The translations under genes and the position numbers were made by a program. The notes below the pieces were generated by a model. That model did no database searches, was not told the origin of the DNA, and saw nothing but the letters and a program-made list of their open reading frames with translations. A stretch of 64,000 bases of DNA from Brachycybe producta (Eukaryota > Arthropoda > Diplopoda > Playtdesmida > Andrognathidae), in contig JAUPFP010000010.1 of the NCBI GenBank assembly GCA_036925085.1, positions 1,120,778 through 1,184,777 of the forward strand, in the 5' to 3' direction. Position 1 is the stretch's first letter, and each line of letters starts with the position of its first letter. Shown one piece after another: positions 11,915 to 58,830 of this stretch.

Positions 11915-14900
11915 TTACAAACGAGTTGAATTTGTTTGTGGTGGATGATCGCTGGTCGAGTGCTCTACAGGCGGCGGCGGCGATGGTGCTGCCGCTGCCG
12001 CCGATGACACCTCGTCCTCATCATCCATGTCGATGACCATGGTTTCACGGCTGCTTGCGTCAGTGTCGGGGCTCCGAGGACATTGACCGGAAGATGAGAC
12101 GGATACGAGAGAGGAACACTCGGATCGCTCCTCTTCGATGACCGTTGCTATTTCCCCTTCGGGTCGATAGTGAGTTTCTGCAGTTGTCACTTTTCTTGAA
12201 GTCTCTTCGACAACGACGGCGGTGGCCTCCTCGTGGTCACTCGTGTCTCCTCCGATTGTCCATTGGCACTTATTATTACTACTATTATGCATTCCATCGG
12301 ATGCGTTCGATAAGGAACTAGATCGACTGTCTTTGATTGTCGTGTGCATTTCCAAGTCAAGACAGTTAATAGTTACCGGATGACTATTACTTCTCGTGTT
12401 CCTGTTTTTATTCAAGCCGAAACCACAGCCACCATTTTCAATCCAACTATTATTCTTTTTATTATTGTTAATGTTATTATTTTCGAAATTATCTCTAATA
12501 TTTTCATTGTAAATACAATGGTCGCTTTTTCCTCTAGTCGGCAAAAGCCCATTTGTACCGGGGAATAAGAAATTTTCGAAAACGCTGTTCGATTTTCCTT
12601 TCTTGTGGTTAAAAATGTTTTTCGAAGTTTTCTGTTGATTCTTTTTCGATTGTGTCGGAAGCGGCGTCGGTTGAGGCATTCCTCCAAATAATGACATGGT
12701 GGACATGAGATGAGCGATACTTCCGGGCATCGGAGCCGAAGGCAAACGAATGTCCGATCTGTTAAACAAAGAGGTCGCTTGACCGCCGGTGGAAGCAGCA
12801 GCGTCCACTTCTCCACATGCCAAAGCCATCGCTAGGTCAAGTATGAAGTTGACCGACGTTTCGGTTTGTCCGTTGTACGGTGATTTCAAAGAGTCGGCGC
12901 TCAGAGAATGTTTTAACTTACTGCTAGAAAAAGGTCTTTGGTTCAGAGAGGGGCAACTTGATGTCCTTTGAACTCCACGGTTCATTTGACCTTGCTTCAT
13001 CTGTTCAACAATAATTAAAAAAACAATCTTGTTAAGTATATGAAGTAGTGTTTGTTTAAATTTGAATAATTACTCCGCAAGCAGCTCAGACGAACTATTT
13101 AGTCCAAAAGCAGCATAAAAATGCATTATAAAAATAAACTATTATCACCTACCATATCAATTCCTTCACACAAATGTAGAATTCAGTTACAAAGCCGGTT
13201 TTAAAGGTTAACCAACGCTCGAACTCCGGTTATTCTATCTTTTAGGATCAAAATTAAGAGAAAACTTCAAATTGTTTTAGAAACTAGGACGAGTAGTTCA
13301 AATCAGGTAAGCTTTTAATAGGAACTTTTTACGTCAGTTACCAAACTTTAAATTTAAAGTAACTTTATAAATGTTTGTGGACGTAAAAACGGCAAGTTTT
13401 CAGGAAGAACATTGCGATATAAAACTAGAATGGTAAAAGATTATGGCTAAGAGTTATTTCATGACAATATTTTTTTTTTCAATTAAACACTTTATAAAAT
13501 GATAATTTGAATATGATCCCTTTGGAGGTAGATTTTATAGATTTTCGCCTTTTTCAAACCAGAGCTGTAACTCGGGCAAGGTGAGTAAAGCACCTGCCTC
13601 GAGCGCACAAAGCAAAGAAATACGGACACAAAATAACAAATGATATAATATTAAGGAAGCGCCAATTTTATTCTTGCCACTGGTGCAAAACTAGCTATAG
13701 TTACAGCTCTGTTTCAAACTACCATCATAAGTTTATTTTGAAAGATATCAACATGAAAAACTTATAGCATCTATTAATTCTAATTTCTAAACCACATAGC
13801 ATTTTCCCCCTCCTGAAAAACGTTCGCTCAAAAACCGTAAATTTACTCAAACCCTCAACCTCTAGCTCGTTCAAGTTTCTAACACATTTTCAATTTCTTC
13901 TTAGTTTTGCGCAAAAATAACCAGAGTTTGACAATCAGCAGCAGTTCATAAAATACCTTAAACTGACGTTTACTTACAAATGAAAGTCAGACTGCATATT
14001 TACTTACTACAGCTTTAAACCTACCCCTTGTTGCTGATTTCCTTAGAGGCAAAATTTAAAGCATCAAAGGCAATAACATCATATTTGTGTTAAAATCTAG
14101 CCTCTAGTCTCTAAAATGCTCGAAAAAGTGATAATGTAGCTGCTACGTCATTAACAGCTGACTTGCCTTTTTCTTTTTCTTAGAATCTGATTGGTTAGTT
14201 AGAATATCAACGCTATGAGCTGCTGTAAATATCAAAATAAATGGAAGCAAACACAGCAGTAATTTGCTTTTTTTTATATAAATGAATTAAAACTAGAGGT
14301 GGGACAAATCCTAAATTTTCTCGAATCCTAAAAGGTTCTGGAATCCCTCGAATCTTTCATACAAGAATCCTATATTATTCATTAAAAAGACTTTTCCTTT
14401 TTTGAATGTATGGGTTTTTATGATCCTTGGATCCCTCCTGAGTTCATTTCAGGGCTTTTCAGGGCATCTGGTACCACCGAAATTGCAGTAATCGCCGTTT
14501 TCTGTTGTTAGTGATCGCTTCTATTGCACATCAATAGAGTTAAAACTAATTTTACTAATGTTTTGAACAGTTTATTTTTAGGTTAGGATTCGAAAGATTC
14601 GAAAGACGAAAAAAGCGCAAAGATTCGAGTTTTTGAATGTCGAATATTTTTCAAGATTCGCGGGATTCGAATGGCCCACCCATAATTAAAACACAAATAT
14701 GCAGTAACATGAAAAGAAACGCAAAGCATAGCTTTCAAGCTGCAGAACGCGAATATGGAGTTTTAGCCTTGACTAATACTTAAGTATTAAAGTTTTTTTT
14801 TTTTCACTTTACCTTGACTTTGTTGGAATAAAATTCAGTCATCTGTTTCATGAATCCGACCATTTCCTTGTTTAATGCAACTTGAGTGTACCGCAGGTTC

Positions 14901-24035: not shown

Positions 24036-27000
24036 TCATAGAGTGTTCTTAGTTGTGCACTGTTTGCAAACTCGTACGGGATGATCCCATCCGCGCCGAG
24101 GAACGGGTTTCATTTCCGGAGAACAAGAGTCACAAACTCCTCGCCCGCAAGCTCGACAATGATGTTTCAGGAGTTTAGGAGTGAACGGAGAATGACAGAC
24201 ATGACATTCACGGATGTCTTCGTCTGGAATCCAATAGGCGGGTCGAGCATTGTCTTTGATGAGACCTGAAACGAGTTGTTGGCAAATTAAAAACGAGATC
24301 GTTATTACGGACTGTACAAAATGGCTTGCCTAATGGGTAATCCATTGCTGATACTACGGTTCCCACCGTATTGTGCAACATCTCGCCCACCCAACGTGCC
24401 GTCAGTTCGTCACTCGGTCCGATACACTCGCTAGATGGCGAATTACCTATTCGTTTTAAACTCAAGTGTCAGCTCATTTTCCAAGTAAACAATGAGCAGA
24501 AGCGATTAAGGTCGTTCGGTTCTTACCCGTATCATTACACCTTTTGCACACTCGAACTGGAGTGTTGCCCCAACCTCTCCACGGTACTGGTCTAAAGTAG
24601 TTAGAGCAGTCGTCGCAGAAACCGTGACCGCATGCTCGACAATGATGTTTCTTGTCGGAAACATCAAACTCTTGCCTGCATATGCCACAGTGCTGATAAA
24701 AAAAAACGCCCACAACAGCATGTTAAGATATTTTACGAAAAGCCGAGTTTCGAACTCTAGTTATTTTACGCGTTTCAGAAGAGCAATACTAAGGGGAAAT
24801 TGAAAGAGTTTTAGAAACAAATATGATAGCTGAATTACTTAATAGTATTTTCATGTTAATATCTTTTTAAATAAACCTTTTAATTCAGTTTGAATATTAC
24901 CTTCTAACTGAAGTTTGGTCATTTCCGGGTCTTCCATATACTTTACATTAAATATTTAACTTTAACACAGTAATAATAATCGTATCACAGTGATATACTG
25001 TACAGATTTTTCCTTGGAAGTAGTTAGTAGTCACTGATTTATTATGAACATTGACTAATTCCCTGACTATTCCAGATTGAGTTGCATCCCTGTTTCTCCC
25101 ATATTTTTCAAATTTTAAAAATTCTTGAACCTTTGCCCCCTTTCTAAGCTATTTGGAACTTCGGGGCCGGTTGAGCTCTCTTCGGTGCATTTAAATTTCT
25201 TTCAATGTTTGCTCTTATTTTGAATCAATAGAATTGGAATTTCAGAAAATAACTTTCCTGACGTTTCCAGGTTTTACATGTTGCCTGGTTAAGTGACAAC
25301 TCCGAAAACGCTTATTTTAAAATACATTATATCAACATAAAAATACCCTTTGATTTAGTTGCCATTCTAGTTTTTAAAACACTGTCAAGTGTCTCTTTAA
25401 TGTATTCCTGATAACGCAGAATAAATAAACAGAGCTCACGAAACATTTACACAAAACCACCATAACCAGATTTCAAGAATTCATTGCACTTGCCAAAATC
25501 TCCGAGTTCGGCACCCAGTACGGAGGAGCAATACGATCCGCCATCCAACTGGTTAACATTTTTGTGGGCCCAGCACTGATGCTGGTCACAGTGTTTGATA
25601 TGTACCCTACACTATCCAGAACCTTTTGAGCAGCATTCTGAGTTCCCTGAAGTACAGTACTTCCCTAATGACAAATAAACCAAAACCACGAGGGAAGGAA
25701 GAGGTGAAGTTTCTTTCTTTTATTGAGTAACCGACAATTACGTCAGATCAATGGCTCACCCCAGGCCACACGTGCTGGATCTCAGTCCTGACAACAGTCT
25801 CAACGGGATCACGATTCCCATACCAGTACTGCCGACTGCGATAAATTATTCCACACGAGGGACATTCGAGGACATAACTACAAAATAAAACACTAAAGTG
25901 ACAATTCACAGAGGTAAATGGGGAGGAGGAGGGAGGGGGAAGACAAGGACTACTTTATAAGCTTTCTTACCCTGACCAAGCATACTTGGCTAAACCTAAC
26001 CAAGTGGAATCATTAGAAGACGACGTCTTTGGAACGACCATCTCGTCTCTACCCTGTTCGTGGCAAAACTAAAGAAAAAAAACCATACGTACACATTAAC
26101 ATAAGAAACAATTCGAATGCTTCTTTCTGTATCTCTCTAAAAGTGCGTTATTCACCTTGCAGTGAAATATGCGATTATCAAATTGATATTGATATTTGCA
26201 TTTACTTTCGGCCGCATGCGAAATGTTGTCGCTACAATGATTCATACTATTCTGGCATCGAACCCTTCATTTTTCATAAAAAAAAAATAAGACAAACGAC
26301 TCAATTCATGTTCAAATTTGTTATGTACTCAAATCAGGAACATCATCAAAACCTAAATCCTTACCCGCAAGAAAGACAACGACTGGAACAGGTAAAATAT
26401 TGGTCAGGAAAGGTACTGGCTGTTGTCTCTTCGATGTCTCCGTTGAATTTTCCATTCAACGTCTGAATAAAAAGTGAATGTAAAACCTACAATCGAAGCC
26501 AAAACGTTCATCATTTCTTGTACCTGAAGGGCATGGTAGACGACCGCCGGCTGCCGAGGCGATCTCACTGTCACATCGTTCAAGTGACGCCCGACGGCAT
26601 CGACCAAGCTGTCGAATATAGTCGGATGGTCCACAGTACGAATGCCCACGTATTGAATTGCACTGAACGCGTCGTAATTGCAGTTCATGTCCTGAAAACG
26701 CTGCTTCACCTGTTCCTCGCAACTCACGCCTGCTTCTGCAAACATTGAAGCATTATGTTTAAACCGGATGCGTTCAGTTCTGAAGTGCCTCCGAAGTAGC
26801 TCGACAAGCTCGCTATGTATGAGGCACAATTCATGCCAAAATGTCATTTCTTCGTTTAGAGGTAAACGCTCTGCAATGCGTTTGCACGTGTTATGGCTCT
26901 AGCAACAGAACGTCAACTCGAAACCAGGGCCAATGCGTCCGGTTGTGCGCCATACAACCTCGCCCGATGAAAAGGGCGCCATTTGACGTTAAATTAAAAA

Positions 27001-29441
27001 AATCCTACAAAAAAATTTCTGCCCTACAAAAACGTGCTTAGCCAATGGCAATGAGTGCTACATAGCATGACTTATGATGCGTCTTTTACTCATCACAAGC
27101 ATGCTAGATATGGGGCGATTTGCGTCATTTATCGTTTTTATGTGTAAGTTTATGTGCCAAAAAAATTATATATATAATATCCCAGGTCTCTGTGTGTGTG
27201 TGGAGTAACACTGTACAAAACCCTTGAAGCACGTCAGAATTTATATTAATTTGAATAAATGAACCGTTTTTTTTTTCTCAAGGTCAACTATATGTTGAAC
27301 TCTTCCTCTGGAAAATGTAGAAGGGGGGGGGAGAGAGAGAGAGAGAAAAGTGGGAGGGGTGACTGAAATTGAAATGAAAGGAGTAAAAAAAGGGAAAAAA
27401 AACGACGCGCATGCGCACAATTGCCTGTGAATTTTGCTCCCGTCATTTATGACGGGTTACCGTGGTACCGTATTTGGCTTTTTTTCAAAAAACGGCCAAA
27501 AGTCGAAAAATATTTAAATGCTGTGAAGGCTCTAAAAATGCCTCAGGAGTGCTCAACTGGCCCCAGAAGTCCCAAAAAGCTTGGAAAAGCACAAGGATTC
27601 AAGAATTTTTAAAATTCGAAAAATGGCTGAAATTTGTATTTGTAGCCTGTAGGGAGCTAAGAGGCGTTGACAGTAACGTAGTTTCCCGGCATAAAATTCG
27701 TAGTTGCAGCACTGCCTGAGACGTTACCATTCGTGCTATAAAAATGCCTTATCAAAAGCAGTATACCTTAACGAAGACACTATTATTAACAACACCCAGC
27801 GCCCCATAGATAGCACGCTAGTATGTCAGTGTATATGTCAAGTGTAAAATGTCTGAATTATACACAGAGAGAGCTTTTTGAGCTGCTGCAAAACGCGCTT
27901 AAAACCCGAAAATTCACATCCAATCGATGTTCGAATTCGCCTTACCTTTAGTCAGAGGCCTCGTATGCTGCGTTTCGTGAAAGATAACGAGAGCTGGACC
28001 CAGAGTAGAAAGGCGTCCACCGAACCCACATCGTTCCGAAGTCGCCTTCAGTTCTTTAGTGAAGTGGCGAAGGTAAGCCAAAGAGGCGTCGCCGAGGAAC
28101 TGAAAGAGATCGTTGTGCAGACGCTCGGCTCTTGTCCTGTAGATCACAACATCAGAAATGGCAAGGACCTAAAAAGGAGAAGTAATGGGAGAATCGAAAC
28201 GAAACAGTTTTTAATTGAATGCCATTATACGAACCTTGAGAAGTAACCGAGTTCGCCGGTTTTGATTGGCCGAAATACCGAGCAAACCTTCCGTATCAAG
28301 AACGATAACGTTCCGTTCTCCATCAAAAGCGACCCAAATCCCGAGAGTACAAGAAGACTGAAGAGCTGAAGTCCTGAATACTTCTCTTCCCGAAAAGAAA
28401 GCGTAGTTCAAAGTATATGATTTGCCCTCACCCGTGTTTCCAAATATGGACACCACTTTGACGAGAGACGATTCGGAAGAACCCAAACGGCGAGAGAAAT
28501 CGGCCGCACTTTCAACCTGTTTATATACGAGAACGAGTCAGAAGAAAACCTAAACATTGTGCAATAAAAAACGTTGAGAGCGGCTTCGTTTTTAATTAAT
28601 TTTAAGATTCATTTTGAAACTAAGACAGTAAACAATGTTGCGTTTACATAATTCTATGATAGGAAGAATGTAAACAATCTTGTATTGCAGTTTGAAACCG
28701 TTTCTCTTTGACATTGTTGGTCAAAAATCATCTAACATTTATTTTATTTCTGTAATGTGTTATTAAAAAAAAGTTTATTTTGAAAGATATAATCATGAAA
28801 ATTATCTACACAACTTCGTTTACACTTATATAGTTTCAAATGATCGAAGTTTGTTATTCTTTTAGAAGCTGCTTCTAAAAAGGCGTTCTCATTGTTTTTA
28901 CTACAACATTAAAACAGCCTAAACTGCTTGCAAATTGCGGCACCTGAAGTAGCTCCTTTTCGTCAATCAACAGAAAACTGCATCCTCCACCAAAACCAAC
29001 ACCACCACTACCAAAACGACCACCAGTTTCTCCACCGGGTAATACGGCAGCTTCGGAACGACCCGATCTATAGAACGCAGCTTCAGCCGAATCTCGATGA
29101 AACGTCTTATTGACGACCGGTTCGGTCGAAGAAACGTCCGGCAGTTGTCCTAATGAACAGTCTAAAAGCGAAGAGTCGCTTCCGATCGACTCTAGCGGAA
29201 CCATCTTTTTACCAACACCAACAGGATTTTTAGATCGCCTGCCGTTCGTACAGTTCGTTCCTCTTCTCTCCAATACTTCACTTTCGACAACCTGTTGTCT
29301 ACAGTTCTTGTTACCACGAATCAAATTCGATCCCACCACTCCTTCTATCAATGGTCCTTTCTCGATAATGTTCTTCGTTGAATGCGATTCTGAAGACGTC
29401 GTCCTTTGATTCGGATTGAGTCTCGCCGTTCGAGCAGACAT
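24036..29441 (-). CDS. ZFYVE1: ZFYVE1 / DFCP1 (double FYVE-containing protein), 12 exons
   Basis: An ER/lipid-droplet- and omegasome-associated PI3P-binding NTPase. Exons: 29441-28944, 28516-28235, 28168-27946, 26735-26524, 26462-26365, 26246-26156, 26068-25971, 25877-25760, 25664-25494, 24692-24527, 24446-24330, 24265-24036. All phases fit and give 767 residues (human 777). The NTPase region has P-loop GNTGEGKS (192-199) and switch motif DTEG (240-243). A Cys-rich middle follows (FTCSSRCLSCG, KCKYQYQFDNRIFHC, ECPSCG), then two FYVE fingers: KKHHCRACGHGFC (about 585-652) and LKHHCRACGRGVC (about 692-765). The first 166 residues are Ser/Gly-rich and lack the Cys-rich N-terminal module of vertebrate DFCP1. 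Introns 9 and 11 appear to use GC donors (TTG|GCAAGT, TTAG|GCAAGC). An acceptor-like site 44 bases before the ATG (exon edge 29485) suggests a 5' UTR intron or trans-splicing. Confidence 0.93.
24735..25470. repeat. Foldback family 1 copy with internal insertion (ZFYVE1 intron 9)
   Basis: The left arm at about 24735-24960 has CGAACTCTAGTTATTTTACG and GAGTTTTAGAAACAAATATG. The right arm at about 25310-25470 has GCCATTCTAGTTTTTAAAAC and ATTTACACAAAACCACC. Between the arms lies a copy of the TTGAGCTCTCTTC...GGTTTTACATGTTG repeat also seen at 47.1-47.7 kb. Confidence 0.7.
26970..27650. repeat. Interspersed repeat family 4, copy A (ZFYVE1 intron 3)
   Basis: Contains CCTACAAAAACGTGCTTAGC, CAATGGCAATGAGTGCT, AATGACGC-type motifs and, after an unrelated gap, AAAAAACGGCCAAAAGTCG with CTCAACTGGCCCCAGAAGTC. 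The same blocks recur inverted at 33610-34030. Diverged relatives are at 25080-25310 and 47110-47690. Confidence 0.75.
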
Positions 29442-31267: not shown

Positions 31268-32013
31268 GTACGAAGCCCCGTAAAGGACATACACAATTAA
31301 ATAAAGTTAAAAAAAAGATATGACCAGTTAAGGCACCACTTATGGCGCCAAAAAAAGATATGGCCACAGTTAAGGCGCCAAAAAAAGATATGGCCACAGT
31401 TAAGGCCCACTTATGGCGCCAAAATAAGATACGGCCGCACTTACGGTCGCACTTAAGGAAAAAGTTGTCAACAAAAATGTAAGCTTGTGATTTCTCACAC
31501 CAGATGTTGTATAAGGTGATAAACATTGGCTATTTGACTAAATTGACTACTGTGTCACAGTATTTGTGACAGGTTTTGGATTCAGCACAAGAACTTCGTT
31601 TGCCAATTAGAAATTGCCGTCCTTCATAAACGGGGGTTTTTGTGCTGAACCCAACCGCCTGTGTGTTTATGTGCATACAATATATTTACAAATGAACGCA
31701 CACAAATGACAGATGATATTTTGAAAGAGATAGGAAACGATATTTTCCCCATATTTTATGAGCGTATTTGGTAAAAAAAAACAAGACATACATCAGTATC
31801 ATTGAAGTATGTATTGAAAACAGATTTCATAATTGATAATCAAACGAACTCTAGACAAAATGCATTCGCAAGCTCCATCTTTTTTCTTAAATGTGGCCGT
31901 AAGTGCGGCCATATCTTTTTTTTGGCGCCATAAGTGGTGCCTTAACTGTGGCCATATCTTTTTTTTTGTTTAACTTTATTTAATTTTGTGCATGTCCTTT
32001 ACAGGGCTTCGTA
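31268..32013. mobile_element. Large terminal-inverted-repeat foldback with internal tandem units
   Basis: The left terminus TACGAAGCCCCGTAAAGGAC is mirrored by GTCCTTTACAGGGCTTCGTA at the right. The inner arms carry a roughly 30-bp unit AAGATATGGCCACAGTTAAG + GCGCC, repeated about three times on the left and in inverse on the right. A small separate foldback with ACAGG...CCTGT ends and GGATTCAGCACAA / TTGTGCTGAACCC arms is embedded at about 31581-31662. Related termini occur near 32078 and 35826. Confidence 0.8.
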
Positions 32014-33300
32014 GCAGTGAGCATGCGCATTGCCGTCTATCGTTTTATATAGGAAAGTGATGGCAAGTGAAAACTACGGTGCCCCTTATAGGACATGAAA
32101 AAAAAATGGGATTTATAACAAATTTAAAAAAATGCAATTTAAAAAAAAAAAAAAATATGAAAAACAATATTGTGGAGGGAAAAAATCAATTTTTTTAAAA
32201 AAATCACTTATATTGAACATAAACATTTTTTGAACAAATCAATAAAATAAATTAAAACAAAATTGAAAACCAACTTAATTTTTCTTAAGAAATAACCGTA
32301 TAGCACAATTTTAAACAGTCAAACCAATAGAATACACAACAAAATGACATTTGTAAGCATTCACAGGTTGTGCCACCTGCCGAGTAAATTGGGCAATTGG
32401 CGGCCATTTTACGTGTATCTAAATTTCGAAGCCGGCAGGCCTGTATCTATAGGAGGCTATGGTTTCGTTGTTTGGATGTTTTCTTGTAAAGGTAATGTAT
32501 TATTCACATGATTAAATCGAAACATAATTAACATGAGGAAACGAATACTTTTTAAATTATAATGTAATGATTTTCTTTTAATTCTTTAATTTTGTATATT
32601 GTTTTTAAATAATCAAATTAAAATCGTTTTAATCTTAATTAATAAAAGTATGCGTAATTTACATAAAATGACAAATGTATTTTTTTAATTCAGATTATTT
32701 TTTAATAATAAATGTTATTTTTAAATTTCAATTTTAATTTTTTTAATAAATTTCAGTTTTTAATTTTTTAATAACTTTTTTAATTTTATTTTTAAATTTC
32801 AGTTTTTATTTTTATTTTTAAATTTCTTTTTTTAATTTTTTAATAATTTTTTTTTAATTTTTTAATAAATTTTATTTTTAAATTTCAGTTTTTAATTTTA
32901 TTTTTATATTTCACTTTTCAATTTGTACTAAATTTCATTTTAATTATTGTTCAATAAATAACATTTATTTATTTATTTTGTAAATTTCATTCTAAAATTT
33001 AATTTCCACTTTTAAATAATTTGTTATTACTTAATCATTCTTTCCTTGTTAATGAAATTATATGTACAATAAATTAAAGTGTATTCATAAATATTCAAAA
33101 CATTAAAAATTATGTAAAATAAATGTGTAAAGTGCATTTATTTTACTTAATTTTTAATGTTTTGAAACTTTATAAACACATTTTTAATTTCAAATTTTTC
33201 AAATTTTGTATTTTTACAAATTTGCCAACTTTTGAATTGTTGCTGTTGCCAGTGATAGTAACTATGACGAATCGATGATTACTATTACCGTCCATTTTGC
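32014..33300. other. Very AT-rich low-complexity block
   Basis: Dominated by A/T homopolymers and repeated AAATTTCAGTTTTTAATTTT-like units, especially 32690-32950. No exon recognised. Confidence 0.6.
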
Positions 33301-33609
33301 TGTCAAATTAACTGAATTTGTCAAATCAATCATTTCTTAGAAGTGAATAATGGCGGAACGATTTGAGGTTATTAAGTTTTTGAATAAATACCAAAGATTT
33401 CCATATTTGTGGAAAAAGAATTGTCTGGATTTCAAAAACAGAGTTAGAGAGACTTATCTCTAAAGAACTAGAGATAACTATCACTGTCATGACAGAACTA
33501 TCACGTTACTTCAAGACATGTTGACAGTTGCTATTGTGAGAGTGAACTGTCACAACTTTCATGACAGCTCCTTTCACGAAAGAACTATCGTCGTGAAAAC
33601 GAGACTTTA

Positions 33610-34030
33610 CAGTTAGTAAAGTCCCTCCGGGACCCTGTTCCGAAGTTTTTGACTTTTGGCCGTTTTTTTTAAAAAAAACCAAAGACTAGTCTTGGATTTT
33701 GACAGAATTTTTCGAATTTTAAAAATTCTTGAATCCTTGTGCTTTTCCAAGCTTTTTGGGACTTCTGGGGCCAGTTGAGCACGCCTGAGGCATTTTAGAG
33801 CCTTCACAGCATTTATATATTTTTCGACTTTTGGCCGTTTTTTGAAAAAAGCCAAATATAAATAATTTTTGGGCACATAAACTTACACATAAAAACGATA
33901 AATGACGCTGTAGTGAGTAAAAGACGCATCATGTAATCCAACCCTTTTGAAAAAAAAACGAAGAAGGAAAAGTCATAATATGTAGGCTAGCACTCATTGC
34001 CATTGGCTAAGCACGTTTTTGTAGGGCAGA
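33610..34030. repeat. Interspersed repeat family 4, copy B (inverted)
   Basis: Reverse complement of the blocks at 26970-27650: GACTTCTGGGGCCAGTTGAG, CGACTTTTGGCCGTTTTTT, and AGCACTCATTGCCATTGGCT + AAGCACG ending near 34028. It abuts the casein-kinase-like exon pair. Confidence 0.75.
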
Positions 34031-34247
34031 CAAGTGGTCACTGCAAAGCTCCACACACCTCACTATAGCCGCAATTCTGTCGGCCTCCAAAAGTCCTGGA
34101 GATCTCTTGGCAGTGAACGTATAAGCCAAATTATATGGCGGGGCAACCGCAACAAAACCCCGCACAACCACCTCTTTACACGATCATATACATACACATG
34201 GCAGAAAAGACCACAAAAATGGAGGGAAAACAAATTTAATTTTGTTA

Positions 34248-34529
34248 CTGATGGTTCAAAGTGCGAAACAGAATACGAAACAGCTGCCTTAGGTACATGT
34301 AGTCGGGTGCTTCTTCGAATCGAAGACCTCGGCAATAGTTCAAATACATTGAAAATTCGGCCGGATAATTCTGTATCGAGAAAGAGACGATACAAAAAAA
34401 TTATATGAAGAAAATTAAAAAAAAACATCTGCGACCAGACAACGAGAAACTCACTTTGCAGAGGATTTCCACTGGGGTGGACATCTTCTTTTCACAAATC
34501 TTTTCGTACTTCTGCTTCTTTGTCGCAGC
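34248..34529 (-). pseudogene. Orphan casein kinase 1 alpha-like exon pair
   Basis: Two reverse-strand exons match the C-terminal lobe of CK1-alpha. Exon a (34529-34455, 25 codons) contains [20 protein letters not shown]; exon b (34370-34248, 41 codons) contains [20 protein letters not shown] then [19 protein letters not shown]. Exon a has a CAG acceptor and a GTGAGT donor; exon b has an ACAG acceptor, and the frame stays open across the 84-base intron. After ...NHQ comes TAA, or a CA|GTAACA donor could be used. Normal CK1-alpha continues with YDYTFDW-type sequence, which I could not find. The N-terminal kinase lobe and catalytic motifs were also not found on this strand up to 36.2 kb or in the other gaps. 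The reading is nearly intact (one Ser to Cys, Val to Ile, Gly-Phe to Asn-Tyr). A recent partial duplication, or 3' exons of a split gene with KTI12 in its intron, are the main options. Confidence 0.8.
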
Positions 34530-34609
34530 CTGATACCAATTAGAGAGGAAAATCGAATTACTTAGTCACCAATTGCGAAATATAAGAAAAATGACCTGTT
34601 TGGCTCCGG

Positions 34610-35452
34610 TTAGTCAGTTCCATTAAGATACTGGACAAACATAGTTGCCAGTTTCTCGTGATCTTCGACCGGATGCATCTTACAATAGGTAATGAACTGC
34701 CTTCGGAGTCGAGCCAACTCCATGGGAGTGTAGAGACGGGTCAAACGGAGCTTACATGACGACGAAGCGACCGGAATTTCATCTCCAATCCCACGACCAT
34801 TCTGACCACTTAGGATAGACTTGACCAGGTCCTGAGTTGTACGATCGAGTTCGTACAGAAAGTTTGTAGCGAGCAACGGTTGACATTGTGTCGATTGGTT
34901 CGGAGGAGGTGCCTTTCGACGAAAGAGAACATCGTATAAATCACGACAAGGTACAACGTCCTCGGTTTGAACAACAAACAGAGGACTGTCCCATCGGTTC
35001 CTCGAGTCCGGCGCTTCGAAACGAGCAAAAAGTGCATCGAAAACCTCCCTGTCGTACCGTTCCGATTCGTCACTGGCTGTCGAGTTACGTTCCCAGGCCA
35101 CTTCGGAGGCAATGTCGCAATGAATCACGCAGTTGGTTGTCTTGCATGCCTTCGTAATACAGTACAGTTCGTATCGGTAACCTTTGATGTAGTTGGGCGC
35201 GTCCAGAATGACCAGACCGTCTTTGGTCAACGTCCTTTGTACTTCCGATCTTAACCGACCCCTCGCTTCTTTTTCCTTGATGTCCACGCTGAACACCTCG
35301 TTCTTGTGATCCCCACTACAACTTCCCTTGAGATCGCCACTCAAAACAGTTACATTTACATCAGGATGTTCATTTAGAAAATACTCCTTCACCTCATTGG
35401 CACGATAAGACTTACCACTGCAAGGTGGACCACACATCATTATCAAAGGCAT
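34610..35452 (-). CDS. KTI12: KTI12 homologue, Elongator-associated P-loop ATPase
   Basis: KTI12 binds tRNA and regulates the Elongator complex needed for wobble-uridine modification. A single exon of 280 residues starts at the ATG giving MPLIMMCGPP, as in the family; the frame extends three codons upstream only through a TTG. It shows a P-loop GPPCSGKS (residues 8-15), VILDAPNYIKGYRYELYC, RFEAPDSRNRWDSPLF, APPPNQSTQ, and the C-terminal RLRRQFITYCKMHP block. Human KTI12 is also intronless, and the length is close to the shorter family members. The stop is followed 80 bases later by the CK1-like exon. ACTR10 starts 749 bp away in the divergent direction, so the two may share a promoter region. 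Confidence 0.96.
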   Translation of the reverse strand: MPLIMMCGPPCSGKSYRANEVKEYFLNEHPDVNVTVLSGDLKGSCSGDHKNEVFSVDIKEKEARGRLRSEVQRTLTKDGLVILDAPNYIKGYRYELYCITKACKTTNCVIHCDIASEVAWERNSTASDESERYDREVFDALFARFEAPDSRNRWDSPLFVVQTEDVVPCRDLYDVLFRRKAPPPNQSTQCQPLLATNFLYELDRTTQDLVKSILSGQNGRGIGDEIPVASSSCKLRLTRLYTPMELARLRRQFITYCKMHPVEDHEKLATMFVQYLNGTD

Positions 35453-36200
35453 TTTAACCAATTCCGCAAGAATAAATACAAGACGAACAAAAACACGCTG
35501 AATTGGTAAAGAACACTGTTGTCACAGACTCAATCACATCGATTCATATCGATCCACACAATGGAAATAAAACCAAGGAGGCAACTCCGTGTTAGAAAAG
35601 AAAACGCCTAAAGTGAGTGAAGAATCGTCTGCATTTTGAAGCTACACGGAAGACTGGTGAATGTCGTACGCCCTGTAATCGTATAGCAACTGAAGCTCTA
35701 AGCACAGTTTGCGCCCTCTATTGGCAACGCTCAGTTTTGACCCCAAATGTTCGATAGGAAAAGCCTCGTAGTTGATTTACCTCTGTATCTTGAATAAAAC
35801 CGTATTATAAGAGGAAAGAAAATTGTACGGAGCCCTGAAAAGGACATTTCTTTTACTTTTGTCAATTCTATCTAATCTGTTGCAACAAATCACTTAATCT
35901 ATTGCGACAGATTAAAAAAGGCTTTGCTTAAAAACATCTTATAAATAAGTCTATACAAAAAAAAACTAAGCTTGAGATGAACTGTTTTTTTTTTCTCTTT
36001 CTAAAATGGAGTTGAGCTACCTGTATATATTTATCTTGAGCTGAGCTCTCAGTTGAGCTTCCCGTATGTATTAAATCTTAATTGAAGTTAATTCGAAGGT
36101 TAAAAAATTTCTAAATAAAATATCAAAATACTGTGAAGATATCTTCTCCTGTTTAATTTTAGGTGTGTGTAATATCAAAGAAATTAAGATAACAAAAAGA
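35453..36200. other. Divergent intergenic region KTI12 / ACTR10
   Basis: About 750 bp between two start codons pointing away from each other, a candidate bidirectional promoter. Contains TCGATTCATATCGATCC, a CTCF-like motif at 35711-35724, and a TACGGAGCCCTGAAAAGGAC terminus related to the element at 31268. No exon recognised. Confidence 0.5.
35711..35724 (-). promoter_or_regulatory. CTCF-like motif
   Basis: The reverse strand reads CCAATAGAGGGCGC, 13 of 14 matches to CCASYAGRKGGCRS. Lies between the divergent KTI12 and ACTR10 genes. Confidence 0.35.
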
Positions 36201-38230
36201 ATGCCTTTGTACGAAGGAATAGGTTTAATAAGTGAAAAGCAGGCAATCATCTTAGACATAGGAAGCGCCTATACCAGGTAACAACAACAACAAACTCCCC
36301 CCTTTCTTAATGTCACTGTTCGAGGGGAACACTTCTTTATTTAACTTCTTTTTGAAGGTGTGGTTTTGCTGGTGAGACTGGACCAAGATGTATCATTCCA
36401 AGTGAAGTGACAGATCCAAAAACAAAGAAGGTATATCCTTGAATAACAAACAAACAAGGGAAAAGTACATGCTGAAATCTACAAAAGTGTACCTTGTACG
36501 TTTCTCCAATCGAGTATTCCTTCGATTAGCCGCAGCCACATATTTTAGCGTCCAGTCTAAGGCTGTGGAGGTGATCTATAGGTTGTGCCGAAGGCGCGAA
36601 ATGCTACACAATGTCCTGCATATAGAGGCCAAGTGGCGGCTAATCGAAAGAATAACCCTCGATCCGTATCTCTCTGTAGTTTCCAGGAGATTTGTGTAGT
36701 GCAGTTCCTGCTGTCACATGGTTCCCCTCGAGCTGATTTCTCTTTCGAATTCTTATAGTTGGTTCGATTGATGGATTTCAACAGTGCCGATCATCTCTAC
36801 TGTTTACTCACAGAATTCATTCACCGGCTTTACTTTGGGCGAGTCTCTCTCTCTCTCTTTGTCATTAATCATTTTTAAATTGGGCAACATTATTGTACAC
36901 TTCAGGTACCTATTGGTGAACCCCAAAGATAGACGAGTGGTTGTCACCGAGTCTCTATTCAGTCCTTCGGTCTTCCGAGAGACATTAGCAAAAGTCTTAT
37001 TCATTCATTACGAGGTATAGAATCTTCTTACGTTAATTTCCTTTTCCGATTCTAACGAGGAAGTTTTATTTGTCGAAAAATGAAGGTGTCTTCAGTGCTC
37101 TTTGCACCGACCCACCTGATGGCTTTACACACACTCGGAATCTATTCCGCTCTGGTTGTCGACATGGGTTATCAGGAGGTGAACGTCGTTCCCATCTACG
37201 AGGGTGTCGTCATGGTTAACTCTAGCGAAGAACATGCCGTTGGCGCAAAGGCCATACATTCGTAAATGGACGTTGTTATTGTTCGCAATATAAGATCGTG
37301 GTGGATTGTGTTTTTTTATTTATTCGATCATAGGCATCTCAGATCGCTTCTCATCGAACATGGCACTGTCAAAATGGGCGAAAATGTCGAAGCAGGAACA
37401 GAAACGATTCTCGGTTATAAACGAATTCATTGAATGCAAAAACCGTTTCTTTTTAACTTTTAAACGTTTCTTTTTTTTGTTTTCAGATTTGCTGACAGAA
37501 GATGTGATCGAAGACATAAAAGTGAGGACGTGTTTTGTTACGCCGTTACACCGATCGAAACAGCTGCAAATCGGTGGTGATGATCCTTCTCGGAATACGA
37601 CGGTGACGCCACCACCGTCCGTAAATTATCCTCTGAGTGGATCTAGTATCTTACACGTTCCCGGAACGGTTCGAGAGGCGACGATGGAATTACTTTTTGA
37701 ACGAGACGGAGACGAGAGATCGTTGGCAACTTCCATCTTGGATTGTATCATTAGGGTTAGAAAATAAAACGGTGGTTCGACCCGTTCAAATGTGTCTCGT
37801 TTCCATTTTATGAAGGTTCCTTGTGATGTTCGACGTTGTTTGGCCGAAAATCTGGTTATCATCGGTGGTTCGGCCATGATCCCCGGTCTCCTTCACCGCC
37901 TTCGTGCGGAAATTGACGATCTTCTGAAGTCCTCTAAGTACTCGAATAAGATCGCACTCAGATCTTTCAAATTTCACAGGTTTCCTGCGAAGGAGAACTA
38001 CGTTGCGTGGCTCGGCGGTAAAAGAAAATTTCTACAGAAGGGGTTTCGTATTTGTGATTTTTTTTTTGTATGCTGAAATTTTTCTGTTTTCAGCTGCTAT
38101 TTTTGCTGCTACCGATGCGGTTATTCTGAGATCCCTATCTAAGGAATCGTATCTGAAACATAGGTGTCTACCGGATTGGTCAAATCACGAATTCTCGTAC
38201 AACATGGAGATTTCAACGATTCAACCGTGA
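36201..38230 (+). CDS. ACTR10: ACTR10 / Arp11, dynactin pointed-end actin-related protein, 9 exons
   Basis: Subunit of the dynactin pointed-end complex, which links dynein to cargo. Exons: 36201-36277, 36358-36430, 36759-36838, 36906-37014, 37086-37261, 37334-37413, 37487-37755, 37816-38017, 38094-38230; phases fit and give 400 residues (human 417). The start MPLYEGIGL matches human MPLYEGLG. Actin-fold blocks are [73 protein letters not shown] and [17 protein letters not shown]. The end of exon 3 (TTTGG|GCGAGT) requires a GC donor to keep frame and give RLYFGYLLVNP, aligned with human ILYFRHLLVNP. Intron 2 contains a small foldback. A candidate poly(A) signal AATAAA is at about 38321. Confidence 0.94.
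36499..36666. repeat. Small foldback in ACTR10 intron 2
   Basis: ATTCCTTCGATTAGCCGC at the left is mirrored by GCGGCTAATCGAAAGAAT at the right, with further complementarity inward (CCACATAT / ATATAGAGG). About 165 bp. Confidence 0.65.
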
Positions 38231-44879: not shown

Positions 44880-46190
44880 GTCAACATTTACAAAATTACT
44901 TCTGAATACAGCGGTGGTTATTTCTGTCAATCAGGCATAGAAAAATGAAAAGAAATTTGAATGTGCATTCAAAACTAGAAAAATGTACAGTAGCTGAATC
45001 ACGTAATTCTCAAGGTTGTTGTCATCTTTCAAAATGAGCTTTTTAAATTTGTCTGAAAAATGACTCAACTTTAAGCAGACTTATGTTTTAATTTTTGGTC
45101 TACATAAAGTTTATTTTAAAAGTTCTCAACATGATAAAATATACTCTTAAATTTGAATTTTTGAATTTGAAAAATTACTCTGCAAGCAGCCATAAAGGCC
45201 TATGGCAGAGGGACAAGAGTCCAAGTGCAGCATAGAAAATGCATTGTCAAAACCAGAAAATATAAAACCCTATTGATATAAACCCAACAACAATTTCAAT
45301 ATTTTTTAATGCTGCAAATATATGCATTGTCAAAACAAAACAAAATTATGACTCCCATAAAATACGTTTTTCCTGCACAAAATCCCCAGCAAGCGAGTTC
45401 CATTGTCGAATCGCCCTCGGGACAAATGACCAGTAATAAGAATCTGTTCGTGCAAAAATCTCTCCAACTTTGTTAGAGTGGTCACCCCTACCCAAATATA
45501 ATGCCCTGCAAAGTTTACTTGAAGTAGGTTTAGGGCAAGAGTCTTCTAGCATTCTATTAAAGATATTAAGACTAAAATCTGAACGTCTTGCAAGTAAACT
45601 ATCCCAACCAAGCTCTGAAAGCATTTTAGTTACACTGTCGGCATATCCATATTTACCACAAACAAACCTAGCAGCCCTGCGTTGGACCATTTCTATAGAG
45701 TGAGCTAAGTCCTCAGTGTGGGGATTCCACACGGAGCTGCAGTATTCTAGATGGGGACGTACTAATGATTGATATGCTATACATTTTACCTCCCTGGGAC
45801 ACCTTCTTAGAACGCGTTGACTAAACCTAAGCATCTGCATAGACTTGGAAATAATCTGTTCGACATGCAGCTTCCAAGAAAGTTTAGCTGTAATCGTTAC
45901 CCCCAAATATTTACAAGAATCTACGTTATTAAGTGGAATGGCCCCTATTCTATATGGAAATATTATTGGATTCTTTCCCCTAGCTACCCTCATTACACAA
46001 CATTTTCCCTTATTAAGTTGAAGTTGCCATTTAGAACACCATGCCTCTATTGCTTTCAAGTCACTATCAATAATATGGCAATCATTGTCAGAGGTAACCT
46101 CACGATAAATTATTGTGTAAATGATTCAGCTGCCAGTCTAGTTTCTAAAACAATTTTCAGCTTGTCTTAATTTAGACTTTTTCTCGAATC
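44880..46190. repeat. Foldback family 1 copy interrupted by a LINE
   Basis: The left portion (44880-45152) has GTACAGTAGCTGAATCACG and AAAATGACTCAACTTTAAGC. The right portion resumes at 46118 with GATTCAGCTGCCAGTCTAG + TTTCTAAAAC. The break falls inside the conserved CCTTAAGTGATTGAGCTACC stretch. Confidence 0.75.
45153..46117 (-). mobile_element. 5'-truncated non-LTR retrotransposon (CR1/Jockey-type)
   Basis: The reverse-strand frame from 46117 down to 45346 encodes the C-terminal part of a reverse transcriptase. It opens in YREVTSDNDCHIIDSDL, just after where a DDT catalytic box would sit, so the catalytic YADD-type motif is missing. Then come AIEAWCSKWQLQLNKGKC, YLGVTITAKLSW, VRPHLEYCSSVWNPH and VQRRAARFV, all typical of this class. 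A 3' UTR of about 190 bp ends in an AAATTC-rich tail. TAAAT at 45148-45152 and 46118-46122 is a likely target-site duplication. Copies of its 3' end occur at 13055 and 54860. It is a dead-on-arrival copy, inserted in foldback family 1. Confidence 0.9.
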
Positions 46191-49745: not shown

Positions 49746-50824
49746 TAATTTCTTTAAAAAAACAATTTAGCAGGGAGCGAACGGCCATGTCCATCTCTCG
49801 CAACCAACTGTCCACTGCTCCATAAAAAAGCCTTAACTCTATGGTCATCATCAATAAAAAGGGAGAGAGAGAGAGAGATAAAAGCCATTTAAGGCCTAAT
49901 AATTATAAGCTCTTATATTACAGAAAAACATGTCAATAAACAATAAAACAAAACAAAAAAAAAACAGATGAAAAATAACAATTAAAAAGCAACCTGTGCC
50001 TTTTCAGAGTGTATATGAAAAACCTATTTCTCTCTTTTTCTATCCTTGAATCCACCTCATCCCACCCACTTAATCGTCGTATATCTCTGTTTCTATTATT
50101 TGTATAAGCTAAAACAATGAAATGACGTATTCAAAATGAGGACCTGGGACCATCTATGCACTTGTGTATACCTGTAGACTCTACAAAATATATATAGACA
50201 AAGCTGCACACTGCACCTAGGTCAACAATGATCCAAAGTCTGGATGACATTTGGTCAAACATTACCTTTCTCTCTCTCTCTCTCTATCTATCTATCTGCC
50301 TTAGTATGTAGATAAACATTCATATTTGACACGCGAACAGGACATCGAGTTTCGTCATCGTCCACCCCATACCTGCGCCACCCACCAACCATAATTCAGC
50401 ATAAAACACATGTACCATGTTGACAATTTGACCCACGATGAGAAGAGAGACAAACAAGTTTGTTACATCTCGAAACCAGAAAAAAAACACCACACACACA
50501 CTTTCAAGTCATCATTACGTAGGTCAAATATATTATAGTAATGAATGACGTGGATAGATAGAAAAAGAGAGAGAGAGAGAGAGAGAAAAAAAAAACATTT
50601 GAAATACATCTACATATGTAAATCGAATGAGGAGGGAGGTTGTTCTTTTGCAATGAATATTATTAACAAGTGACAAATTATTGTTCCAAATATGGAACAT
50701 TTTTCTCTGAATCAATCAATCTATGAGAAGATTCTGCTCAGAATTATTAATTCTTAGCAAAAATGTGTGAAATTCAAGGAAATTTGTCGTTTGAACTTCA
50801 ACTTAAATTAACATGGTTAACGAA

Positions 50825-51178
50825 CAGCTCATTTTCGAACTCTATTTGATTATTCTACGTTTCAGGCGGAAAAAAAATTAAGAGAAACTAGAAAGTGATT
50901 TAGAAACTAGAGAAGTAGCTCAATCACTTAATAGTATTTTCATTTTTGATATCTTTCAAAATAAACTTTTTACAGACTTTAAAACTAAGAAAATGTACTC
51001 CGCTTAAAGTTGAGCCATTTTCAAACTCACATAAAAAGTTTATTTTGAAAGAGAACTTGAAAATACACCCTTAACTTATTGAGCTACCCTTCTAGTTTCT
51101 AAAACAAATTCAAAGTTCTTCTTAATTTTCTACTTGAAAGACAGAGTTCGAGAGACGTTTACACTTTAAAACCACCTG
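50825..51178. repeat. Foldback family 1, best-preserved copy
   Basis: The two arms pair over nearly their full length. Left: TTCGAACTCTATTTGATTAT, GATTTAGAAACTAGAGAAG, TTTCAAAATAAACTTTTTA. Right: AAAAAGTTTATTTTGAAAG, CTACCCTTCTAGTTTCTAA, AGACAGAGTTCGAGAGACG, TTTACACTTTAAAACCACC. Confidence 0.88.
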
Positions 51179-56241: not shown

Positions 56242-56520
56242 TGTATATATTTAATAAGGGGGCTCTCCACGACCCATCACGTCAATGACCCTTTCTAATT
56301 TTTTTTTAAAATTCCTTTTTACTTGACAGGTTTCTCAGGACTCAAAATCAACTATTAATAATTTATGCATGGCTATATACAAAGAAAAAGGACATCATCA
56401 TCATCATCACATTTCTTGGATTTAAAAAAAGTGCAATTTTGAGCCATATAGGCCTATTTTTTTTATTAATCGAGGCTTTTTAACGATTAATTCAATCGAA
56501 TTCAACCGATCAATTTCATC

Positions 56521-57503
56521 ATGTTGTCTCATAAAGGTTACACGGACAATGTGAACTCAATGGGTATGGGTTCTATGGGAACCATGTCAAGCTCATACAA
56601 CATGAACAGTATGAGTAACATGGGAATGAGTTATTCTCCTCAGAGTTTATCCGGTTCGATGGGTATGAGTGCGGGATCGGCGGCTGTTGCAGCCATGGGT
56701 GGAATGAGTTCCATAGGAATGGGCGGAAGTGCAGCTTGTATGGGTTCATCAATGGGAACGATGCACGGTTCGATCGGTACCATGAACTCGCTAAGTTCGG
56801 CAGCGGCAGCAATGAATAACATGAACACGATGGGTTCGGCTTGTATGGGTAGTATGAGTCCGATGAACAGTATGAACGGTGCTCTAACGCCCGTTTCAAT
56901 GAACAGAGATATGTCGCCGCCTGGAAATGCTGCCGGATCGAATGCAACGGCATCGGCCTTGCAGAGAGCAAGAACCGATAAATCTTATAGGCGTAGTTAC
57001 ACGCACGCCAAACCACCGTACTCTTATATCTCGCTCATAACGATGGCCATACAGAATTCGCCTTCCAAAATGTTAACCCTAAGCGAGATCTATCAATTCA
57101 TCATGGACCTGTTTCCATTCTATCGTCAAAATCAACAACGATGGCAAAATTCGATAAGGCACAGCCTCTCATTTAACGATTGTTTCGTCAAAGTGCCTCG
57201 AACTCCCGACAAACCGGGAAAAGGTAGTTTTTGGGCGTTACATCCCGAATCGGGAAACATGTTCGAGAACGGTTGTTACCTAAGACGTCAGAAACGATTC
57301 AAATGCGATAAAAAGGACAATATACGTCAATCGCATAAGAATCCCGGTTCGATACACGGAAGTACAAAAGACGGAAGTCTTAGTAAGGACAGTTCGACGG
57401 CATCGACGCCAACCGGAGATCACGATCCTTCTAAGGAGTGTATCGTTATGAATTCTCATCATCTGAGCAAATTGCATCAACACCAGCAGCAACAACAACA
57501 ACA

Positions 57504-57538
<35 letters not shown>

Positions 57539-57954
57539 ATCACCACCACCATCCACACGACGATAATCGTTGTGCACCGGCCAATGGTCACGGTCAACCG
57601 GACCATTTCAGCATGTCTATGCACCACCACCATGCATCAGCTGTTGCTGCACATCATGGTGGTCATCTACATCCTCACCATAGGCCCATGTCCGATTCGT
57701 CACCACCTCTACCCGGTGGACTCCTCAAAACGGATCCACATTATAACCCAACCAGTCATCCGTTCTCCATAAACAACCTGATAACGATGGACAGCAAAGC
57801 AGACATCAAAATGTGCGATTTGAGTCAGTATGCTCAGTACGGTTCTTTATCGCCAATGTCCTCTTCGGCCGCCTCACTAACCACGGACAATGCCTCTTAC
57901 TATCAGACTTCCATGTATCCCAGTGTTCACCATTCAACCGTTTCCTCTTTATAA
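56521..57954 (+). CDS. FoxA: FoxA (HNF3-type) forkhead transcription factor
   Basis: A nuclear pioneer factor of endoderm, foregut and midline development. The 477-residue frame is uninterrupted, as in several invertebrate FoxA genes. Residues 1-130 are rich in Met, Gly, Ser and Asn. The forkhead domain (about 162-261) starts [18 protein letters not shown] and contains helix 3 [18 protein letters not shown] and wing segments [20 protein letters not shown], then [10 protein letters not shown]-rich then H-rich tract lies at about 319-345, with a second His-rich stretch near 368-390. The conserved region II motif HPFSINNLI (413-421), an eh1-like Groucho/TLE-binding motif, and region [13 protein letters not shown] (about 458-467) confirm FoxA rather than another Fox class. 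The [13 protein letters not shown] is like MLxxKGY starts in invertebrate FoxA; a short upstream coding exon cannot be excluded. The codon bias is more GC-rich than the flanks. Confidence 0.97.
57483..57555 (+). repeat. CAG/CAA-CAC repeat encoding poly-Q and poly-H
   Basis: Mixed CAG and CAA codons encode about 18 consecutive Gln, followed by His codons, within FoxA. The interrupted codon use suggests it is stably maintained rather than a recent expansion. Length polymorphism is likely. Confidence 0.9.
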
Positions 57955-58334: not shown

Positions 58335-58830
58335 TTTAAAGTGTAAACGCCATCCGAATTATGATTAATTCTGCCTTTCAGGAGTAAAATTAAGAAAAAA
58401 GTTATTAAGTGTTTTAGAAACTAGAAGGGTAGCTCAATCATTTAAGGGCGGATTTTCATGTGCAATACCTTTCAAAATAAGCTTTTTCTGAATTATAGAC
58501 AAAAAATTAAAAGTAACCATTGTCTGCTTAAAGTTGGCTCATATTCAAAACTAACATAAAAAAGCTTATTTTGAAAGATATCAAAACGAAGACACCCTTA
58601 AGTGATTCGGCTACCCGTCTAGTTTATAAAACACATTCAAATTGTTCTTCATTTTGCATCTGAAATACAAAATAATCAGAGGTTGAGAGGCGTTTACACT
58701 ATAAAAACACCGTATATATAAGTGATTGAGCTACCCTTCTAGTTTCTAAATTTTGCCTTTTATAATAAAAAGAATAACCAGAGTTCGAGGAGCGTTTACA
58801 CTTTGAAACGATCTTAATGAATTTCCATTC
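58335..58830. repeat. Foldback family 1: complete copy plus an adjacent half copy
   Basis: 58335-58712 is a full palindrome (TAAAGTGTAAACGCCATCC ... GGCGTTTACACTATAAAAAC). A second right half follows directly at about 58715-58830 (GAGCTACCCTTCTAGTTTCT ... GCGTTTACACTTTGAAACG). Tandem arrangement of the same family. Confidence 0.82.

Follow-up and report, generated by a model that had tools for sequence, protein, structure and literature searches.

The DNA analysed here, referred to throughout as the window, is a stretch of 64,000 nucleotides from Brachycybe producta, corresponding to positions 1,120,778-1,184,777 of contig C10 in an assembly of 295 Mb and 442 contigs. It carries a KTI12 gene, the reading frame of which is unbroken and for which the genome search gave only one match. 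In the 3' flank of this gene lies a fragment made up of two exons of casein kinase I alpha (CK1-alpha), on the same strand as KTI12 and bordered on its far side by a dispersed repeat (Table 1). The distance from the KTI12 stop codon (34612-34610) to the first of the two exons is 80 bp, as given in the preliminary description of this DNA, and that from the stop codon to the edge of the duplicated DNA, at 34566, is 43 bp. A forkhead-domain gene in a single open frame (Pfam Forkhead, 4.3e-38) lies at 56518-57954 on the plus strand of the window; it includes a long glutamine/histidine run, and we take it to be FoxA-like. An Rfam scan of the window at gathering scores and a tRNA scan returned no matches.

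Table 1. Positions of KTI12, the CK1-alpha fragment and the duplicated DNA within the window
Feature	Position	Strand	Remarks
KTI12 gene	34610..35452	minus	single open frame of 280 aa; Pfam KTI12, E 9.9e-83
Copy of CK1-alpha coding exon 7	34455..34529	minus	75 bp, 25 codons
Copy of the parent's short intron 7	34371..34454	minus	84 bp, GT...AG retained
Part copy of exon 8 (first 123 bp)	34248..34370	minus	41 residues
Duplicated block A	34246..34566	minus	= C10:1,317,405-1,317,726; 315/322 identical (blastn)
Bridge between blocks	34222..34245	minus	24 bp in the window, 766 bp in the parent
Duplicated block B	34036..34221	minus	= C10:1,316,465-1,316,638
Dispersed repeat, truncated at its junction with block B	33856..34032		genome searches

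Read on the reverse strand, the two exons join in phase to give 66 codons of the CK1-alpha C-lobe, with AG before both exons and GTGAGT after the first. The best match of these 66 residues in the PDB is casein kinase I alpha, chain 9oty_C (E 2.6e-38; 61/66 identical, counted by hand from the alignment), which we take to be the human protein. Scores in the same search were 131 bits for the alpha subtype, 99 for epsilon, 97 for delta and at most 61 for gamma, and the aligned part is that of CK1-alpha and not of delta, epsilon or gamma. The claim that two real CK1-alpha exons are present on the reverse strand is therefore borne out by the translation, the PDB match, the splice sites and the in-phase joint. 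Their characterization as two intact exons holds for the copy of exon 7 and fails for the second, which has only the first 123 bp of an exon 8 that, in the complete gene of the same organism, measures 246 bp and includes the stop codon.

A permissive tblastn search of the whole window, with the full sequence of human CK1-alpha as the query, recovered the place of the fragment at 1.6e-31 and matched only residues 225-291 with confidence. The next match (0.015) contains in-frame stops, and none of the matches listed is another CK1-alpha exon, in agreement with the earlier statement that no further exon lies nearby. By this search, the fragment falls short of a complete kinase domain, with ATP-binding N-lobe and HRD and DFG catalytic segments. 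No relatives of the exons were found in the viral contigs, plasmids or prokaryote genome contigs searched.

When the assembly was searched with the 66 residues, as had been proposed at the outset, a full CK1-alpha locus was found on the same contig. Seven matches were obtained: the two exons of the window, two at C10:1,317,407-1,317,689 on the same strand as those of the window, and three others, two on C13 and one on C8, which by our reading look like a delta/epsilon-type and a more distant CK1. A second CK1 gene of the genome (L003/L006, C13:1,058,585-1,063,198) is delta/epsilon-like by our reading. The complete CK1-alpha gene, hereafter the parent, runs from C10:1,330,732 to 1,317,284 on the minus strand, 162 kb from the fragment, and both are borne by one contig of 5.9 Mb in the same orientation. 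Its sequence was taken from C10:1,300,001-1,350,000, and its exon boundaries were placed from tblastn matches and splice signals. There are eight coding exons, specifying 332 residues and a stop codon; AG is present at 7/7 internal acceptors and GT at 7/7 internal donors, and the joined frame ends at the stop. The best PDB match of the encoded protein is again casein kinase I alpha (E 4e-203), and its Pfam assignment is Pkinase.

Exon 7 of the parent is the counterpart of the first exon of the window. All 66 codons of the fragment align with the parent, and 65 of the 66 residues are the same. The copy of exon 7 differs from its source at two positions, one of them synonymous (Lys) and the other replacing Ser by Cys within the stretch ISEKK, and the part copy of exon 8 has zero differences over its 123 bp.

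The homology between the two loci consists of two colinear blocks. Block A takes in, besides the exons and the intron between them, the end of the upstream intron (intron 6) with its acceptor. Block B stems from DNA 3' of the CK1-alpha stop codon and is 88% identical over 188 columns, of which six are mismatches and the remainder gaps (blastn). In the parent, the source stretch measures ~1.26 kb and comprises the end of intron 6, exon 7, intron 7, exon 8 and post-stop DNA. The net loss between the blocks is 742 bp and takes with it the stop of CK1-alpha and the 40 codons before it. In the MAFFT alignment, the 24-bp bridge is paired with parental DNA containing an ATTAAA downstream of the CK1-alpha stop, and the deletion joint is resolved as CATCA-GTA, with a 3-bp microhomology (GTA, minus strand) at both parental ends. 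The TAA that directly follows CAG, the last codon of the fragment, is there only because of this joint.

Removal of the missing middle by splicing was rejected: the parental segment starts with GTATGA, and there is no AG at the joint end. A retro-copy was likewise rejected, since intron 7 is present, as is the end of intron 6; the intron travelled with the exons, and the copy was therefore made from DNA. In reciprocal genome searches, a 613-bp query from the window and a 1501-bp query from the parent each hit both blocks of the opposite locus, and among the best candidates scored there was no third locus holding the pair (six matches for the window query, three for the parental one). The window query also gave a weaker match to a kinase exon on C13 and two short matches of the neighbouring repeat. 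A larger segmental duplication is unsupported. Comparison of the whole window with 50 kb around the parent (blastn) gave 228 matches, of which six were examined, those with a start within 32,000-37,000 or a score of more than 150 bits; they comprise the two blocks, a match of 50 bp to the satellite and three matches elsewhere (window 14505-14678, 50815-51129 and 58368-58666; 72-83% identity), which we take for dispersed repeats.

We are confident, on these grounds, that the two exons arose by dispersed partial duplication of the CK1-alpha gene of the same organism. A partial copy of the 3' part of the gene lies 162 kb further on, with the 3' end of KTI12 on one side and a truncated dispersed repeat on the other; the direction of copying is deduced from the completeness of the parent. 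The event was probably a break-and-copy or end-joining accident, not reverse transcription, and the missing middle was probably deleted via microhomology joining. Three readings had been put forward in the preliminary description, namely a recent partial duplication, a chimeric 3' part of KTI12 transcripts and KTI12 nested in a split kinase gene. The first is upheld by the complete parent, the two colinear blocks and the intron, its "recent" amounting to a divergence of ~2.5%; the last is refuted, as set out below.

Copy and parent differ at 12 of 493 ungapped sites (~2.5%), and the Jukes-Cantor distance is 0.025 overall and 0.035 for the noncoding part. Mismatches number 2/198 (1.0%) in coding and 10/295 (3.4%) in noncoding sequence; lower coding than noncoding change would fit weak constraint, but the difference is not significant (Fisher p 0.14). 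In a simulation of 20,000 runs, in which the window branch underwent unconstrained change equal to half of the noncoding divergence, no stop arose in the 66 codons in 82% of runs; in 23% there was no stop and not more than one residue had changed. Given the low divergence, an intact frame of 66 codons needs no selection. A dead fragment that is still young could well have such a frame, which is no evidence of use; it is probably intact because of the youth of the fragment.

Unlike CK1-alpha, the fragment has no N-lobe, catalytic loop, activation segment or C-terminal end; with no N-lobe, catalytic loop or start, it would be non-functional as a kinase. If the fragment has any role, it would contribute to the terminator of KTI12 or to its 3' untranslated region; KTI12 transcripts may include the fragment as untranslated sequence. 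Exonisation of this kind could come about by splicing from a donor in or after KTI12 to the acceptor before 34529, or by unspliced read-through to the ATTAAA at 34240. The copied acceptor is intact. Five donor-like sites score at least 6/9, and two of these reach 7/9: one at 34756, within the KTI12 coding sequence, and one at 34596, after the stop, the latter being the CAG/GTCATT donor noticed from the start, which is indeed present and agrees with the consensus at seven of nine positions. The ATTAAA lies inside the copied DNA and is the sole AATAAA/ATTAAA hexamer in the 1.2 kb after the KTI12 stop; the hexamer variants AATATA (33821) and TATAAA (33817) lie within a satellite unit. Against this, AT-rich DNA often contains hexamers and donor-like sites by chance, with one to two hexamers expected per 1.2 kb by a rough hand estimate. 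In the parent, four AATAAA/ATTAAA hexamers follow the stop within the 1.8 kb scanned, and CK1-alpha need not use the one that was copied. Since the KTI12 stop precedes the donor at 34596, kinase residues would not be translated from a transcript spliced there, and post-stop splicing adds none to the KTI12 protein. As a prediction from hexamers and splice motifs, exonisation of the fragment is, to our mind, unlikely.

More doubtful again is the specific proposal that KTI12 gained its 3' end from CK1-alpha, with transcripts that would enter the copy, carry as untranslated region up to 198 nt of nearly identical CK1-alpha coding sequence in sense orientation, and have their 3' ends at the copied ATTAAA. 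Were it true, the messages of KTI12 and CK1-alpha would share untranslated regulatory sequence, and a KTI12 transcript ending in the fragment would be a small, datable case of the gain of a 3' untranslated region by partial duplication. No mention of KTI12 was found in the works listed by the literature search.

At the far edge of the duplicated DNA, homology to the parent ends at 34036 and the match to the dispersed repeat ends at 34032. With a copy on C7 that runs past this point as the query, 26 of the 28 repeat copies that begin at the same start extend past the stop point of the window copy, and two stop before it; the count was drawn from 40 matches, the best of 46 candidates, leaving out ten that start elsewhere, the window copy and the query itself. 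As other copies of the repeat run on past this point, that of the window was cut at the joint. A duplicated block that adjoins a dispersed repeat might suggest that a transposable element had captured the fragment and brought it to this site, but the repeat is cut at the joint and is not complete past it, both blocks occur at two loci only among the best candidates scored, and no repeat end was recognised on the KTI12 side in searches directed at other questions. The fragment was found neither inside complete element ends nor repeated together with an element, and capture by a transposon is, in our estimation, very unlikely. Nor is there support for recombination between the left-hand repeat of the window and a copy of it at the parental locus: the 50 kb around the parent have only two short matches to the satellite part of the repeat (L011, L008), neither at the breakpoint.

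The satellite-like unit itself, next to the dispersed repeat at 33646-33856 of the window, occurs in many places in tandem arrays with a spacing of ~170-180 bp, for example at C43:529,904-536,412. Most of the matches obtained with a 741-bp query, at least 146 in number, are to this unit, although two other repeats are covered by the query as well; the best 40 of 2480 candidates were scored. Inverted copies of one compound repeat are found ~6.1 kb apart at 27018-27624 (minus) and 33707-34030, with an identity of 97% across 154 bp and of 75% across 178 columns. A further dispersed repeat, at 33295-33609, has copies of ~82-84% identity on C81, C17, C105, C40 and C83.

That the second locus is an artefact of assembly, by misjoin or as a haplotype copy, is highly improbable: copy and parent are told apart by substitutions, by the internal deletion, by a 14-bp length difference and by both flanks, and the two lie on one contig. 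A split CK1-alpha gene with KTI12 nested in its intron is refuted, and a role for the window exons as alternative 3' exons of CK1-alpha is almost certainly wrong, in spite of the complete gene upstream on the same strand. Exons 7 and 8 and a stop codon are already present in that gene, the copy of exon 8 in the window is without its end, and splicing to the window copy would have to span 162 kb, skipping at least the forkhead gene and KTI12.

Duplicated (unprocessed) pseudogenes are the category in which the intron is kept and the promoter and start are missing. Like an unprocessed pseudogene of CK1-alpha, the copy in the window keeps its intron and is without promoter and start; unlike one, it is a fragment, and its 66 codons are still free of frame disruption. 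The dispersed partial duplicate favoured here fits partial DNA-mediated gene duplication and is ordinary in kind: it comes from one ancestral gene, is truncated to two colinear blocks and has its introns retained. According to Katju (2012, PMC3449122), partial duplicates of this kind account for 21% of 290 young pairs in C. elegans, for 27% of newly originated genes in D. melanogaster and for 76% of the segregating duplications in 15 D. melanogaster lines. As in the duplicates treated there (Katju 2012, PMC3449122), only part of one ancestral open frame has come to lie in a new place; unlike them, the copy in the window is also without an internal segment and shows no sign of forming a gene.

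The locus carries a caution: exons that are open, well spliced and taken from a highly conserved gene can still amount to no more than a fragment, young and without function. Gene predictors may fuse the CK1-alpha fragment with KTI12 or call a false kinase.

Two further regions of the window contain open frames. The frame at 28211-28537 (minus) has a match to the N-terminal part of GBP-type GTPases (Pfam, 3.9e-05); together with its neighbour at 26404-26898, for which no Pfam match was found, it is presumably ZFYVE1-like. The frame at 45346-46125 (minus) is reverse-transcriptase-like, with a weak match to Pfam RVT_1 below the curated cut-off, and is probably a decayed LINE.
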